The notes below the pieces were generated by a model, which was given only the letters and a program-made list of their open reading frames with translations, did no database searches and was not told where the DNA came from. Positions 12,592 to 47,792 of a stretch of DNA of 49,633 nucleotides are shown here, in pieces. The first letter of the stretch is position 1; each line of letters starts with the position of its first letter. Origin of the DNA: an uncultured Prevotellaceae bacterium (lineage in GTDB: Bacteria > Bacteroidota > Bacteroidia > Bacteroidales > Bacteroidaceae); NCBI GenBank assembly GCA_900313705.1, contig OMSJ01000016.1, forward strand, positions 1 through 49,633, read 5' to 3'. The translations under genes and the position numbers were made by a program.

Positions 12592-12803
12592 GGATTTTCT
12601 TGCCTATCTTTCGATTTACGCCTTTATTTCTTTCCATTCGGCTCGTTACTCGGGGATGTGCTGTGTCGTAAACCTTCAATCAGGCTGACAAGTTCACAAA
12701 TCCACAGGGAAAAACTCCTCGTTTCACACGACAAAATCTCCAAAAACACACCACCAAACCTCGACACCCGCACTACAAAATCCATTTAGGTTGGTTACAA
12801 AAT

Positions 12804-12900
12804 TATTTTCAAGGCTTGAAAATATATTTTCAAAGCTTGGTTATTTATTTTCAAGGCCTGATTATAAATTTTCAAGCCTTGAAAATAATTTTTAATCAAG
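12804..12900. repeat. Tandem palindrome array, 21-bp period
   Basis: Four units start at 12804, 12825, 12846 and 12867, exactly 21 bp apart. Each holds TTTTCAAGGCTTGAAAA or a variant; the first and fourth are nearly perfect palindromes, the middle two have a degraded right half, and a weak fifth copy follows at 12888. The array lies in the gene-free stretch 12592-13140, about 100 bp before the promoter of the restriction-modification locus. Nothing else was recognised in 12592-12803. Confidence 0.8.
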
Positions 12901-25470: not shown

Positions 25471-26763
25471 TTACAGGTCTGCTCCGATGTCTCTGCGGAA
25501 GTTCTTGCCTTGGAACTGTATCAGCTTGGCATTGGCAAAGCTCTTCTCCAGGGCTTCTTCCTTGTCCTTCCCGTAGCTGCTGACGGCAATGACACGTCCA
25601 CCGTTGGTCACAATCTCGCCATCCTTTTTGGCTGTCCCAGCATGGAAGACGATGCTGCCCCAGACGTCTTCGAGACCGGTGATGGGGAATCCCTTCTCGT
25701 AGGAGCCAGGGTAGCCTCCGCTGACGAGCATGACGCAGACGGCAGCCCTTTCGTCGAACTCTACCTTCCGCTCGGCAAGCGTGCCTGTAGCAACGCCTTC
25801 GAAGAGATCCACGATGTCGCTCTTCAAGCGCAGCATGACGGTCTCCGTCTCCGGGTCGCCCATGCGGACGTTGTATTCGATGACCTTCGGTTCGCCTGCT
25901 CCTTGCTCCTTGCCCCCTGCCCCTGTATTGATGAGGCCGAAGAAGATGAAGCCCTTGTAGTCGATGCCTTCTGCCTTGAGACCTTCCACGGTGGGACGGA
26001 TGATGCGGTCCTCCACCTTCTGCATCCATTCTTTTGTAGCGAAAGGCACGGGAGAGACGCTGCCCATGCCGCCGGTGTTCAGACCGGTGTCACCTTCGCC
26101 GATGCGTTTGTAGTCTTTCGCTTCAGGCAGAATCTTGTAGCTGTTGCCGTCGGTGAGGACGAAGACGCTGCACTCGATGCCGTCCAGGAACTCCTCGATG
26201 ACCACACGGCTGCTGGCACCGCCGAACATGCCGCCAAGCATTTCCCTGAGCTCCTTCTTTGCTTCTTCGAGTGTCGGCAGGATGAGTACGCCTTTGCCGG
26301 CGCATAGGCCGTCGGCTTTGAGTACGTAGGGCGGCTGCAAGGTCTCGAGGAAGGAGATGCCTTCCTCAATAGTGTCTTTTGTAAATGTCTTGTATGCTGC
26401 CGTGGGAATGCCGTGTCGCTGCATGAAGCCTTTGGCGAAGTCCTTGCTTCCCTCGAGCACAGCTCCTGCCTTCGACGGACCGATGACGGGGATGTCCTTC
26501 AGCTCAGGATCGTTCTTGAAGTAGTCATAGATGCCTTTCACCAAAGGGTCTTCTGGACCGACCACCACCATCTGTATCCGGTTCCTCAACACAAGCATCT
26601 TGATGCCATCGAAGTCATCGACCTTGATGTTGACGTTTTCGCCCACCTCGGCTGTGCCTGCATTGCCCGGAGCAATGAAGAGCTTCTCACACTTCTCACT
26701 TTGAGCTATCTTCCATGCCAGCGCGTGCTCACGTCCGCCACTACCTAACAATAAAATCTTCAT
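25471..26763 (-). CDS. purD: Phosphoribosylamine-glycine ligase
   Basis: The 430-aa ATP-grasp enzyme joins phosphoribosylamine and glycine to GAR in purine synthesis. [16 protein letters not shown] (4-19), [36 protein letters not shown] and [12 protein letters not shown] are the family blocks, and the C-terminal [12 protein letters not shown] is present. The length is normal apart from about ten extra residues ([11 protein letters not shown]) inserted where the family has a short turn before [14 protein letters not shown]; these are encoded by four heptamers at 25895-25922. The insertion is in frame in a surface loop, so activity is probably kept. The palindrome-array element at 26795 begins 32 bp before the ATG, and no standard promoter is seen there. 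Confidence 0.95.
25895..25922 (-). repeat. Four heptamers inside purD
   Basis: CCTGCTC, CTTGCTC, CTTGCCC, CCTGCCC on the plus strand form an exact 7-bp period in the coding sequence, encoding the extra loop residues GKEQGAGE of PurD. Confidence 0.85.
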
Positions 26764-26794
26764 AAGCCTTTATAGTTTGTTTTATTCTTAAATA

Positions 26795-26960
26795 ATATGA
26801 TAATCTGCAAAACACCCCTTGCTCCCCTCTCAGGGAATTGGTCAGATAAGTACACGGACTTATGGGGATAAGTACACGTAGTTATTCGGATAAGTACACG
26901 TACTTATGGCGACAAGTACGCGTACTTTTTTCCATAGGCTATTATTGCGGATTATCATAT
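26795..26960. repeat. MITE-like element A carrying four 22-bp-spaced palindromes
   Basis: The 16-bp ends ATATGATAATCTGCAA (26795-26810) and its inverted match (26945-26960) differ at one position. Inside, four 18-bp near-palindromes of the form ATAAGTACACGTACTTAT start at 26846, 26868, 26890 and 26912, exactly 22 bp apart, with 4-bp spacers GGGG, TCGG and GGCG. It occupies the gap between the type IIG gene and purD. Confidence 0.88.
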
Positions 26961-27006
26961 AAAATAAAGATGTAATATATAATTGAGGGATTGATGGGAA
27001 TTAGAT

Positions 27007-30000
27007 TTATAAGAAAAGGAAATTAATCTCTTCCGGAGATAAGCCATACATTTCCGCCAGGGCCAAATCTATATCAACTTCTGCACTCTTGTCTCCCGCC
27101 AATGCACAGTCAACGAGAGTTTCTATTCTGTCTGTTTGCTCCTGGGTTGGATGTTCAATGACAGGTATCATTCTTACGAATTGTGGTTTGTATTCATAGT
27201 AGCCACCATTGCGGACTACAGCTATTGTCTGCATGAAGAAGTCTGCCAAGCGGGAGTTCAGCACTGCCAACAAGTACTTGGTCCCTGGTGTTACCATCAC
27301 TGCCGGGGCATTGATGTGCATTTCCTCCGGCATCCATGTGCATGATGCCTGGTTGTTGAGGTTGCCCCAGGCAATTTTTGTCTCTTTAAACTCTTGATGG
27401 AAAGCAATGGTGTCGGATGTCTCAAACCATTTGTTGGAAGTTTTTTTACGTGATTTGATAGGCTGCCCGTTAGCATCCTTAAGTTCGCGGCCATCCATAA
27501 TGATGCGCTTCCCCTTTTGCTCCAGGAAGAGTCTGCCAAACTCTAGCATCTTTGTTTCATTGTTTGCAATGTCGGCGTGTCCCTGCTGTGCCAACCATTC
27601 TCTTGAGTATAAAAGAAGATGCTTTTTTAGTGTGGGGTAGTTCTCTATATTTATATGTAGCGACGGATAGAAGCCTATGACCCATTTGTCTGCCCATTGA
27701 TGCTGGTAGCGATGAATGTCGCAACCTTCAATGAAGGGATGCAGTACAGCCTCCGTACGCTGCCTTTCCTCTTCTGTCTGACACTCGCCAAGTATTTGTT
27801 CGCGTTGGGCGGTCGTGATTATAAAAGCATTGTTGCGACCTGTAACAACACCTCTTGCAAACTTTATGTTTTCCCATTCCCCCAAAGGCTTTCCCTTCTC
27901 CAGCATCTTCTGCATGATGGCGCGTTTCTCGTCTGGTATGATTAGCCATTGCTGGTTTTCTTCAAAATGGCAGCGTAACAGGTTTTCCTTGACAAACAAT
28001 GACATGTTCTTTACATCATCTACTTCTTTCCCTTCAGTGGTGGCGCACAAGGCAGGTGTTTGTTGGCCAGCCTGGTTTCGTGCCATAAGAATGCTGTTTA
28101 CCACTGTGGCGCGTTTGAATAGGTTCAAGCCAGGGAAATCCAACAATTGCAGGGGCTGGGAGTGTTTGACTAGATAATTCCGTAGTTGTTTGGCTGCATC
28201 GTTGCGTAGCCATTTGTCGGAGGTGATGAAGCAGAACAAGCCTCCCTTGCGGAGTAGTTGAAGAGCTCGCTCATAGAAAAGGAAATAGATGTCGCCATTG
28301 CTATTGAATGTTTGATAGTTTCGCTTCTTGTAGCGTTTGCGCAGGCGACCGCCTTCTGCGCCAAGACCAATATAGGGTGGATTGCCTACAAGAATGTCGA
28401 ACCCCAGGAAATGTCCATCTTCGTCAAGCATATCCGGGAATTCCAGCATCCATTCCATATAGTTCTGTTCCGTGTCCTTCTTTTCCATTCGGGCTATCTC
28501 GAAATCCAGAAAGTCGGATTGGATGTATGAACGGAATTCACGCTTCACGTCATCTAACTTTTTCTGAAGCTCATGCCTGCCTGCGTGTCCGCTTCCATTC
28601 TTGTAGGCACACGTCAAGTCCTTGTACTCGCTGGTTATCTCGCGAATAGGTTTAGAGGCAGAAGTCTGCACTCCTGTCTCTGGCCAGACTTTCACCTCTA
28701 AGTGCGACATCAACGCGTCGCCTTGTTTGATGTTAATGTCTATGTTGGGAAGCGTCTGAAGTTGTCCGTTGTCGTAGTAAGCGTTCTTTAATAGCTCTAT
28801 CCAAAGACGTAAGCGGCAAATGTCAACACTCTTTGGGTTAATATCCACACCATAAAGACATTGGCTGATAATGCGACGTTTTTCCTCGAACAATGTGCGT
28901 TGGAGAGCAGATGCCTCTTTGTCGCTTCTGTCATAGGCGAAGGGTTTTTGATGCTCTTTGTCTGTAATGACCAGTTCATCGTCTCCGATGTCAATCGACC
29001 ATCCTTTTACACGTTCATTGGCATAACCTTCAGCATTATCCGAATAGCATAGGATATGCAGTCTTTGCTTGATGGCAATCATTTCGTTTAGTGCCGACAC
29101 AAGGAAGTGTCCGCTTCCCACAGATGGGTCGCAGATACGGATATTGTTGATGGCTTCATTTGCTTGACGGCGGACATCTGGATTGTGGTAGTCCATGTGT
29201 TCCACAATCTCGTTTATAGTTTTGTGCTGCCAACCAAAATGTTCATTCATTTGCGCCACAACAGCTCGCTCTATCGTCTCGCGGCACATATATTCGCAAA
29301 CATAGCCTGGCGTGAAGTATGCTCCATCCTTATACCCATTTATTTTCTCAAAAATCAGTCCAAGTACAGAGGCATCTATCAGCGTCTTCTGCTCCCCATC
29401 CGTTTCTTCTTCGTCACGCTCGTAAGAGCCGAAATCATAGGCTTCCAAAAAACGAAGCATATACTCCAGGGAGTTGAGAGTCCCCTTCAATACCTTTCCG
29501 TTTCCGTCTTTCAATACTGTTGCCGAATAAACTTTGATGTTGCCATGAGGTAGTGCATTAATGGTAAAATAATGTTTTTCAAGTTCCGAGACCTCGAACA
29601 ATGCACTATTAAGATATGGTATACGGGCATAGCGGCTACTGATTTTCGCATCACGTTCGTTTTCCTTCTTGCTCAACACCTTGAAGAACAAATCGAACAA
29701 GTCATGGTAGTTGCTTACCACGGAAGGTTCTGACCCAGAGGAAGACAGGAATTTGTACTGCTCGCTGCCACCATTGAAATTGACTAATTGGGTTTCTAAC
29801 AGCTTCAGGAAAAGAATGCGGTTAACCCATAAGATAACTAGTCCAATGGCTGTGTCATAAAGATTGCTGTCATCTACTCCTAATTCCGTCAAATGCCAGA
29901 TTGTTTGCTCCAGTAGTGAATAGTGCTGGCGTTCCCTTTCTGATAGTCGTTGGATGACATCCAATTGTCCGACACGTTTTTCCTCAACGCCCATCAGGTA

Positions 30001-30750
30001 AAGCAGTTCATTATAGAATTTTGTATCCAGATGATTATGGTCGAAATCATAAGGGAGCATACAAAGGTGAGTCGGAGAAAAGAATTTGCATAGTGCCTCG
30101 AAACTACGCTTATTCACTATAGCTTCATCGTCAATGATGTTGTCAAATCTATGTAGGTCAAAATACACATAACTGAAAGAGTCTTGCACTTTCTTTACCT
30201 CTGGTGCTATGACTTCTTGATATATCTCGTCACGGTTCTTCTTTTCACGTTCATAGCGCTTAATTTTGTTCCAAAGGTCACGGTTAGTTCCAAAGTTGTT
30301 ATAGAAAAGCTTACGCTCAAAGACATACCACTCAAAACCGTTGGTCACTGCCAAATGTTTTATTTCTTTGTTGTCGCATTCTTTCTCCTGCTTTAGATAG
30401 TAAAGCACAAGTTGGCAGAAACCTTTTCGGTCAAAGTGACCGTCTTGTGGCATTTCGATAGCGTTGCCGGGTGCTTTCATCTCCATCAGAATCCAGGGAT
30501 GCGAACTCTCAGGCCCGAAAATGGCTTGGTCAACCTTCTTGCTTGTATTGACCTGATATGGGTCGTCATAGAAGGAATGTGTCAGGAAATCGCGAATCCA
30601 AGCCTTATTATGCTCTTCATCTTCGTTAGCATTTAACTTCAAAAGTAATGTTCGTAGTGCCTTGCGGAAACGCTCCTTGGTTTCCAGGGGTTCATGGTTA
30701 CGAGAAAAACTCCGATTAAGAGCTATGCCTGGTTTTAGTTCGGTAGCCAT
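27007..30750 (-). CDS. Type IIG restriction-modification enzyme (Eco57I-like)
   Basis: The 1247-aa single chain combines cleavage, methylation and target recognition. The N-terminal nuclease part has a PD-(D/E)xK arrangement with D74 (KKVDQAIFG) and E90-x-K92 (MEMKAP). The N6-adenine methyltransferase has motif I DPSVGSGHF from D541 and NPPY from N790 (ILVGNPPYIGLG). The C-terminal 350 residues (FARGVVTGRNNAF, WADKWVIGFYPS, CTWMPEEMHINAPAVMVTP) fit a TaqI-like target-recognition domain. No separate methyltransferase or specificity gene is adjacent, and BREX or Dnd partners are absent, so PglX is unlikely. It is AT-richer than its neighbours, consistent with transfer. It follows the S9 peptidase gene by 28 bp on the same strand. 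Confidence 0.9.
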   Translation of the reverse strand: MATELKPGIALNRSFSRNHEPLETKERFRKALRTLLLKLNANEDEEHNKAWIRDFLTHSFYDDPYQVNTSKKVDQAIFGPESSHPWILMEMKAPGNAIEMPQDGHFDRKGFCQLVLYYLKQEKECDNKEIKHLAVTNGFEWYVFERKLFYNNFGTNRDLWNKIKRYEREKKNRDEIYQEVIAPEVKKVQDSFSYVYFDLHRFDNIIDDEAIVNKRSFEALCKFFSPTHLCMLPYDFDHNHLDTKFYNELLYLMGVEEKRVGQLDVIQRLSERERQHYSLLEQTIWHLTELGVDDSNLYDTAIGLVILWVNRILFLKLLETQLVNFNGGSEQYKFLSSSGSEPSVVSNYHDLFDLFFKVLSKKENERDAKISSRYARIPYLNSALFEVSELEKHYFTINALPHGNIKVYSATVLKDGNGKVLKGTLNSLEYMLRFLEAYDFGSYERDEEETDGEQKTLIDASVLGLIFEKINGYKDGAYFTPGYVCEYMCRETIERAVVAQMNEHFGWQHKTINEIVEHMDYHNPDVRRQANEAINNIRICDPSVGSGHFLVSALNEMIAIKQRLHILCYSDNAEGYANERVKGWSIDIGDDELVITDKEHQKPFAYDRSDKEASALQRTLFEEKRRIISQCLYGVDINPKSVDICRLRLWIELLKNAYYDNGQLQTLPNIDINIKQGDALMSHLEVKVWPETGVQTSASKPIREITSEYKDLTCAYKNGSGHAGRHELQKKLDDVKREFRSYIQSDFLDFEIARMEKKDTEQNYMEWMLEFPDMLDEDGHFLGFDILVGNPPYIGLGAEGGRLRKRYKKRNYQTFNSNGDIYFLFYERALQLLRKGGLFCFITSDKWLRNDAAKQLRNYLVKHSQPLQLLDFPGLNLFKRATVVNSILMARNQAGQQTPALCATTEGKEVDDVKNMSLFVKENLLRCHFEENQQWLIIPDEKRAIMQKMLEKGKPLGEWENIKFARGVVTGRNNAFIITTAQREQILGECQTEEERQRTEAVLHPFIEGCDIHRYQHQWADKWVIGFYPSLHINIENYPTLKKHLLLYSREWLAQQGHADIANNETKMLEFGRLFLEQKGKRIIMDGRELKDANGQPIKSRKKTSNKWFETSDTIAFHQEFKETKIAWGNLNNQASCTWMPEEMHINAPAVMVTPGTKYLLAVLNSRLADFFMQTIAVVRNGGYYEYKPQFVRMIPVIEHPTQEQTDRIETLVDCALAGDKSAEVDIDLALAEMYGLSPEEINFLFL

Positions 30751-35434: not shown

Positions 35435-35601
35435 ATATGATAATCTGCAAAAGCACCTCTTGCTCTCATCTCTGGGAGGTGGTCAGATAAGTACACGGAC
35501 TTATGGGGATAAGTACACGTACTTCCGGCAATAAGTCCACGTACTTATGGCGACAAGTACACGTACTTATTTCCATAGGGCATTTTTGCGGATTTGAGAT
35601 A
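35435..35601. repeat. MITE-like element B with four 22-bp-spaced palindromes
   Basis: The left end ATATGATAATCTGCAA (35435-35450) is identical to that of element A; the right end (35586-35601) keeps TTGCGGATT and then diverges. The 18-bp palindromes start at 35487, 35509, 35531 and 35553, again exactly 22 bp apart, with spacers GGGG, GGCA and GGCG. The flanks (CTTGCTC..., GGTCAG, TTCCATAGG) also match element A. Confidence 0.88.
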
Positions 35602-47634: not shown

Positions 47635-47651
47635 GTCCAGCCCCTGACACA

Positions 47652-47687
47652 CAGCCCCCTCTCCCCAAGCAGGAGAGGGGGCTTTTT
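47652..47687 (+). terminator. Terminator of the HU gene
   Basis: GCCCCCTCTCC pairs with GGAGAGGGGGC across a short loop (CCAAGCA), followed by TTTTTTGTG. Confidence 0.88.
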
Positions 47688-47708
47688 TGTGTCCGAAGAA
47701 AGTTGCCG

Positions 47709-47792
47709 CTAAGTCCCTGTACTTATCGCCGTAAGTCCCCGTACTTATCTCCATAAGTACGCGTACTTATCGCCGTAAGTACACGGACTTCT
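47709..47792. repeat. Third 22-bp-period palindrome array (C)
   Basis: Four 18-bp units start at 47709, 47731, 47753 and 47775, exactly 22 bp apart, with spacers CGCC, CTCC and CGCC. The spacers are the reverse complement of those in elements A and B, so this copy is inverted. The best unit is ATAAGTACGCGTACTTAT. The terminal arms of A and B are not seen here. The gene-free stretch 47635-48465 also holds the HU terminator, the repeat fragment at 47839-47955 and the foldback element at 48145-48330. Confidence 0.82.

Follow-up and report, generated by a model that had tools for sequence, protein, structure and literature searches.

A MITE of an uncultured Prevotellaceae bacterium carries a member of an unnamed class of phased arrays with a 22-bp period

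The ends of the transposons Mu and Tn7 carry repeated sites of about 22 bp, in helical phase and bound by a single protein. Site arrays of this kind mark the ends of an element, whereas the arrays described here are dispersed and are also found free of any element. The BrickBuilt MITE of Porphyromonas gingivalis resembles our element in its Bacteroidales host, its non-coding sequence and the tandem repeat held inside its inverted ends (PMC4596501). That repeat has a period of 23 nt, with 18 full repeats in one copy, and the main text of the report contains no word starting with "palindrom" (PMC4596501). BrickBuilt differs in its ends, of the CCGAAAGGTCTC type, and in its unit, AGAYCATARTATCCTCTCRTRTG, neither of which matches our element (PMC4596501). 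The REP, BIME and REPIN sequences with their RAYT are likewise short dispersed palindromes, present in many copies, intergenic, placed toward gene 3' ends and species-specific, and ordered tandem clusters of REPs exist in P. fluorescens SBW25 (PMC3733652, PMC6006769, PMC3116915). The present arrays are unlike REP/RAYT systems in having no GTAG tag, no Y1 linkage and a 22-bp register that is kept across unrelated units. Among the matches listed from one open-access library, with few subscription papers covered, nothing was found on 22-bp palindrome arrays in Prevotella.

The window, the whole stretch of 49,633 nucleotides analysed here, is one contig (C109) of a 2.83-Mb assembly of 185 contigs from an uncultured Prevotellaceae bacterium. 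It contains a 164-bp MITE copy on the plus strand (26796-26959), without any listed ORF of 80 aa or more, that lies between purD (25471-26763, minus strand) and a directly adjoining type IIG restriction-methylase gene (27007-30750, minus strand). The left terminal inverted repeat is TATGATAATCTGCAA (26796-26810, plus strand), for which the consensus over copies is TATGATAATCCGCAAAA, and the right is TTGCGGATTATCATA (26945-26959, minus strand), 15 bp long with one mismatch against the left. Inverted ends with one mismatch had been predicted and are present; the predicted length of 16 bp is reached only if one flanking base is added on each side and is otherwise 15 bp. The right target-site duplication TAAAATAA (8 bp, 26960-26967) lies directly outside the right end and is identical at 7/8 positions to the left copy TTAAATAA (26788-26795).

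Inside the element are four 18-bp palindromic units, ATAAGTACACGGACTTAT (26846-26863), ATAAGTACACGTAGTTAT (26868-26885), ATAAGTACACGTACTTAT (26890-26907) and ACAAGTACGCGTACTTTT (26912-26929). Relative to the third unit, taken as the reference (0 mismatches), the first and second have one mismatch each and the fourth has three. The starts of the units (26846, 26868, 26890 and 26912) are spaced by exactly 22 bp. These coordinates, together with controls in the 2.8-Mb assembly, confirm the four 18-bp palindromes at an exact 22-bp period of the original prediction. Indeed, AAGTACNCGTACTT had 158 and 185 matches on the two strands of the assembly, compared with 2 and 1 for the reversed control, and pairs of AAGTMCNCGKACTT at 22-bp-array spacing numbered 132 and 136, compared with 0. 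Because these counts far exceed the reversed controls, neither the palindrome nor its spacing is due to chance. A second MITE copy occupies 35436-35600 of the window (plus strand, end coordinate approximate), with four units at 35487-35570 and a decayed right inverted end, and at 47709-47792 there are four further units, also in 22-bp register, that form an array lacking the MITE ends. An intrinsic-terminator-like hairpin at 47650-47690 is aimed at this free array, and similar pairs of terminator-like hairpin and array were seen at L074, L086 and L136.

The element is a MITE, with inverted ends, a target duplication and a short, non-coding sequence in high copy. A 196-bp query from the window gave at least 49 matches in its own genome, at least 40 of them strong, a lower bound from 40 of 155 candidates scored. 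MITE arms were present at 56 of the 93 own array loci fetched. The predicted fixed copy number applies to most of them, since 47 of these 56 arrays (of at least two units) have four units, but not to the nine with five, nor to one further MITE copy, at C30, with a single unit. End matches within one mismatch numbered 56 in the own genome and 0 in the control, and sit on 40 palindrome-carrying elements; 39 of these contain four or five units, the remaining one just a single unit. Duplications of 8 bp that were at least 7/8 identical were found at 12 of the 34 MITE copies, among 67 candidates, in which both ends were located; permutation gave 0.9 on average and never more than 5. The proposal of a mobile element is thus upheld by conserved inverted ends, 8-bp duplications and copy number. 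No autonomous copy with MITE ends was found among the 56 end matches in the own genome, and no paired ends around a gene were seen by eye in 19 of the 20 end-like matches listed in congeners. Multicopy IS are often missing from MAGs. The congener G496 has elements with the left end of the MITE but different hairpins inside; a TATGATWATCCGC end with other hairpin cargo was observed at L166-L168 (G496) and at L177 (G479).

The 22-bp register of this palindrome is strict, as had been predicted. For units with at most one mismatch, all spacings up to 120 bp were multiples of 22. This count took in 173 neighbours from 60 loci of the own genome and 76 from 22 loci in further genomes, after three loci whose repeats measured 20 or 21 bp had been set aside. 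No off-register unit was present at one mismatch in the 93 own loci, and at two mismatches there were six off-register pairs, all in L029 and L081. In a scan of named genomes, 22 of the 25 loci listed had 22-bp spacing, the exceptions being two loci of one Umea bin at 21 and one Anaerolineales contig at 20/40. Named carriers of the arrays were the sheep-rumen Bacteroidaceae MAG RGIG6885 (G450), other Bacteroidales/Bacteroidaceae MAGs and two Prevotella records, which makes a Prevotella-like rumen bacterium the probable host of our element. Outside the rumen, AAGTAC-type tandem palindromes were observed at 21 bp in the Umea bin (L093, L097) and at 22 bp in a lake Bacteroidetes (L090). Copy numbers range from 2 to 11, the 11 units being those of L105, from the cultured Prevotella sp. 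tc2-28. One locus was recovered from two genomes with nearly identical flanks (L081:1454-1559 and L102:315-398), and its two arrays differ by exactly one 22-bp unit; units therefore come and go whole.

Within this register, conservation was confined to particular bases. In 36 copies, the test being restricted to those with a matching end, the core AAGT.C..G.ACTT was off consensus at 11 of 1520 positions (0.7%) versus 97 of 828 (12%) in the adjoining arm. Units were accepted with as many as 3 mismatches in 14 positions, and array patterns had served to locate most of the own loci. In 33 four-unit arrays the mean fraction off consensus was 0.008 for the half-site core, 0.148 for the M/K base and 0.189 for the linkers. 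The MITE arms, in the 40 of 56 copies in which both were alignable, had 0.096 substitutions per site and 34 indel events. In the 34 own arrays without MITE arms (two or more units each, single-unit loci left out), core mismatches were found at 52 of 1030 sites once the best-matching unit had been removed from every array. Fixed and free positions are one base apart, which base-specific recognition explains and the copying of whole units does not.

The 22-bp array is separable from the MITE and is not a property of it. Ten loci (L147, L155, L159, L164, L073, L084, L068, L085, L153 and L082) carry a different dispersed repeat of about 330 bp, with one to three recognised palindrome units and with similar ends, TGTCAAG...TTCG, that are direct rather than inverted. 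Other own arrays lie free in intergenic DNA, with two to six units and without recognised ends. RGIG6885 has 113 exact pairs of palindrome units; four units were present in 20 of the 31 arrays inspected, and the units mostly consist of one AAGTCC half and one AAGTAC half. At L127, L130, L131, L143 and L145 of this genome the arrays are followed by a common stretch like CTGCCAGACATCTGGGAATCAGG, some with a GCGGATAGTCAT end, and are perhaps a sister MITE. The exact pair pattern had no match in viral_contigs, on which ground a viral origin was rejected.

Absence from related genomes had been named as an outcome that would speak against the prediction. For the palindrome this is half borne out: ATAAGTMCNNGKACTTAT has 207 copies in the own genome and one or two in 3 of 120 other congeners, so that the 18-mer is present in 4 of 121 with the own genome included, and two units in register were found in 2 of 399 family genomes, again with the own genome included, though one other genome, RGIG6885, has its 113 pairs. 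For the register it is not borne out, since related genomes contain 22-bp arrays of unrelated units. Across 800 kb, sampled as 40 stretches of 20 kb each in 19 related genomes (among them G450, G456 and G457, whose kinship is not given), 42 arrays were periodic at 22 bp. Of the independent periods 21 came next (n=5), the 34 arrays at 44 being at the double of 22. The stretches were on long contigs known from other matches, and five genomes supplied the second 20, including G027, whose richness in arrays had been noted before. The first 20 stretches alone gave 20 arrays at 22 and 3 at the next independent period, and in these Tandem Repeats Finder reported 19 at 22 bp and no more than 5 at each of the remaining periods from 12 upward. 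A Markov control, which ignores genes and is a poorer control than the other periods, gave 0 periodic arrays across five replicates. Arrays at 22 bp were found in 11 of the 19 genomes and in none of the other 8. Many are built on unrelated units, and no convincing k-mer was common to all the sampled arrays. Strong palindromy was seen in 14 of 42 arrays compared with 3% of shuffled units, a figure limited to these 42 because 4 of the 14 units added from earlier loci (56 in total) came via a palindrome pattern. Beyond the genus, 181 kb from ten further genera of the family had 2 arrays at 22, and 161 kb from ten genomes outside the family had 1 at 22 and 2 at 23; this genus is therefore not the strict limit of the register.

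A second motif behaved in the same way. Pairs of CCGCRYGCGG (gap 2 to 32) were present in 13 of 121 congeners, with 357 in G251, 309 in G027 and 76 in G481, and none in the own genome; the reversed control was 0 in every result listed. With periods of 12-42 permitted, 75 of the 80 distinct matches listed were at 22, 4 at 21 (all in G251) and 1 at 12. The linkers of the G481 arrays were only 47% alike. As an independent motif, CCGCRYGCGG confirms that the register extends beyond our palindrome. A linker motif T.GC.A was tried as a feature of all arrays and rejected, being enriched in the CCGC arrays and in the sample's one AAGTMC array and not in the 34 others. We conclude that the element is a MITE and that its array belongs to a class of 22-bp phased arrays that has no name.

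Convergent intergenic positions were occupied by 14 of 48 MITE arrays (p 0.005) and 9 of 26 other own intergenic arrays (p 0.006), relative to a null of 13.7% convergent intergenic bases drawn from related rather than own genomes, with genes from a simple ORF script; as the MITE copies share ancestry, p values of this kind are overstated. In the related genomes 33 of 42 arrays were intergenic and 8 of these 33 convergent, which was not significant (p 0.12). REP repeats are alike in being intergenic and enriched between convergent genes (PMC3733652).

The reading that we favour, by a narrow balance of probability, is that the array is a set of dyad-symmetric sites for a putative dimeric DNA-binding protein, two helical turns apart, that was captured by a MITE. 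A dimeric, sequence-specific protein would read the array as double-stranded DNA, contacting AAGT-C in each half and leaving the fifth half-site base and the linkers largely free. The 22-bp spacing is about two helical turns, so adjacent dimers would share one DNA face and might touch. Dimeric, cooperative binding by such a protein fits the conservation pattern, and protein-binding arrays would explain most of the data, the protein itself being hypothetical. The binding sites are supported by the exact register, by core conservation in and outside the MITE and by other motifs at the same period; it is from this pattern in the DNA that we infer a binding protein, its cooperativity and a function of the arrays. 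They may act at the DNA level as a boundary, a roadblock or a nucleoid-organising site, and one array would have been captured, then spread within the own genome, by a MITE with TATGATAATCCGC at its ends and target duplications of 8 bp. Against this reading, core conservation might reflect selection for transposition and not host function, and palindromy is no general feature of the 22-bp arrays (14/42 high). The RGIG6885 units, moreover, show a consistent asymmetry at M/K for which a plain homodimer would have no need. Strong RNA folding, the duplication of a whole unit (L081/L102) and the 8 of 19 genomes without an array also weigh against it.

The main rival is a REP/RAYT-like origin, in which a RAYT-type (HUH, Y1) transposase creates and mobilises REP/BIME-like repeats, cutting out the hairpins and placing each next to one already there; insertion at a fixed distance would yield an exact register without selection on binding sites. 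We regard this as rather unlikely. Short dispersed palindromes that are intergenic and, in the own genome, convergent-enriched are what is described for REPs (PMC3733652), and the motif varies between species. A Y1 protein like the REP-associated transposases (with scores short of the curated cut-offs) is 85-92% identical in five AAGTAC-type genomes, but orthologues 78-83% identical are also present in G494, G513, G469 and G471, all without the 18-mer, and three array genomes of the AAGTCC-GGACTT type showed no such orthologue. A related gene of G459 has three copies of the palindrome AAGATTACTAATCTT at 23 bp between its conserved halves (L218:1422-1485), with the frame open, and palindromes between conserved halves are reported for TnpAREP subclass 2.4 (PMC6006769). 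The 16 of 31 RGIG6885 arrays that begin in one orientation and finish in the inverse would also agree with this origin, as would an array 1.7 kb downstream of the Y1 gene in the own genome. That array was the nearest known to a Y1 gene, however, and none was found in the Y1 flanks (about 1.5 kb or to the contig end) in five genomes. The GTAG/GTGG tag at the hairpin foot was rare in 116 linkers of 36 elements (GGGG 28, GGCG 28, TCGG 11, GGCA 11, GTGG 4, GTAG 2), and M/K pairs were mismatched or independent. Since tag and linkage fail, the arrays are unlike REP/RAYT despite their similar placement. The number of Y1 genes showed no trend with array density by eye. RAYT as the specific cause was rejected, the gene being present in motif-free congeners as well and the arrays unlinked to it.

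Still less probable is a passive minisatellite, that is, 22-bp units that are functionless tandem duplications carried by the MITE. Copy numbers of 2 to 11, MITE copies with five units and the orthologous array that differs by exactly one unit in two genomes would all be accommodated, but slippage has no reason to prefer 22 across unrelated sequences, and the linkers diverge while the cores stay. It is also very unlikely that the arrays are RNA elements whose transcribed hairpins serve as terminators or 3'-end stabilisers. RNA folding of four arrays was in each case far better than that of shuffles (z -4.6 to -7.9), although such low energies would be expected from palindromes. The convergent bias would suit this explanation, as would the non-MITE arrays between codirectional genes, in which the longer T-run was downstream rather than upstream by 8:3 in the own genome and 8:5 in RGIG6885. 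In MITE copies the T-run pointed upstream in 12 of 15 informative cases, a wrong orientation for which the terminator reading was rejected, and a terminator-like hairpin stood just before 4 of 66 non-MITE arrays versus 7 of 600 random positions. A hairpin function would predict that M and K covary; the MITE copies showed no covariation (p 0.18 within units and 0.79 across linkers), and in RGIG6885 112 of 123 units had an M/K mismatch, each of the two sides being A or C. No Rfam match at E<=1 was obtained within 26500-27200.

Returning to phased binding sites, the related genomes keep the 22-bp register but have different units in it. The class is thus a broad one, and its specificity would change quickly. 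An extension that we consider possible, and advance tentatively, is a genus-wide system with many 22-bp arrays of dyad-symmetric sites per genome, in which a fast-diversifying family of putative binding proteins would have species-specific targets at a constant register, with spread by MITEs. To our knowledge, chromosome organisation has been little studied in this group of rumen and gut bacteria. If correct, the proposal would assign a role to intergenic repeats that abound in a large rumen and gut bacterial group, and a single co-evolving protein family that reads such arrays would be categorically new. If a protein sets the register, the palindrome of each species would be a bait for finding it, and because the spacing stays at 22 bp while the sequence changes, the co-evolution of protein and site would be directly testable. 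The window also contains, at 12799-12892, an array of CTTGAAAATATATTTTCAAG-like palindromes with a period of 21 and 4.6 copies by Tandem Repeats Finder (TRF).
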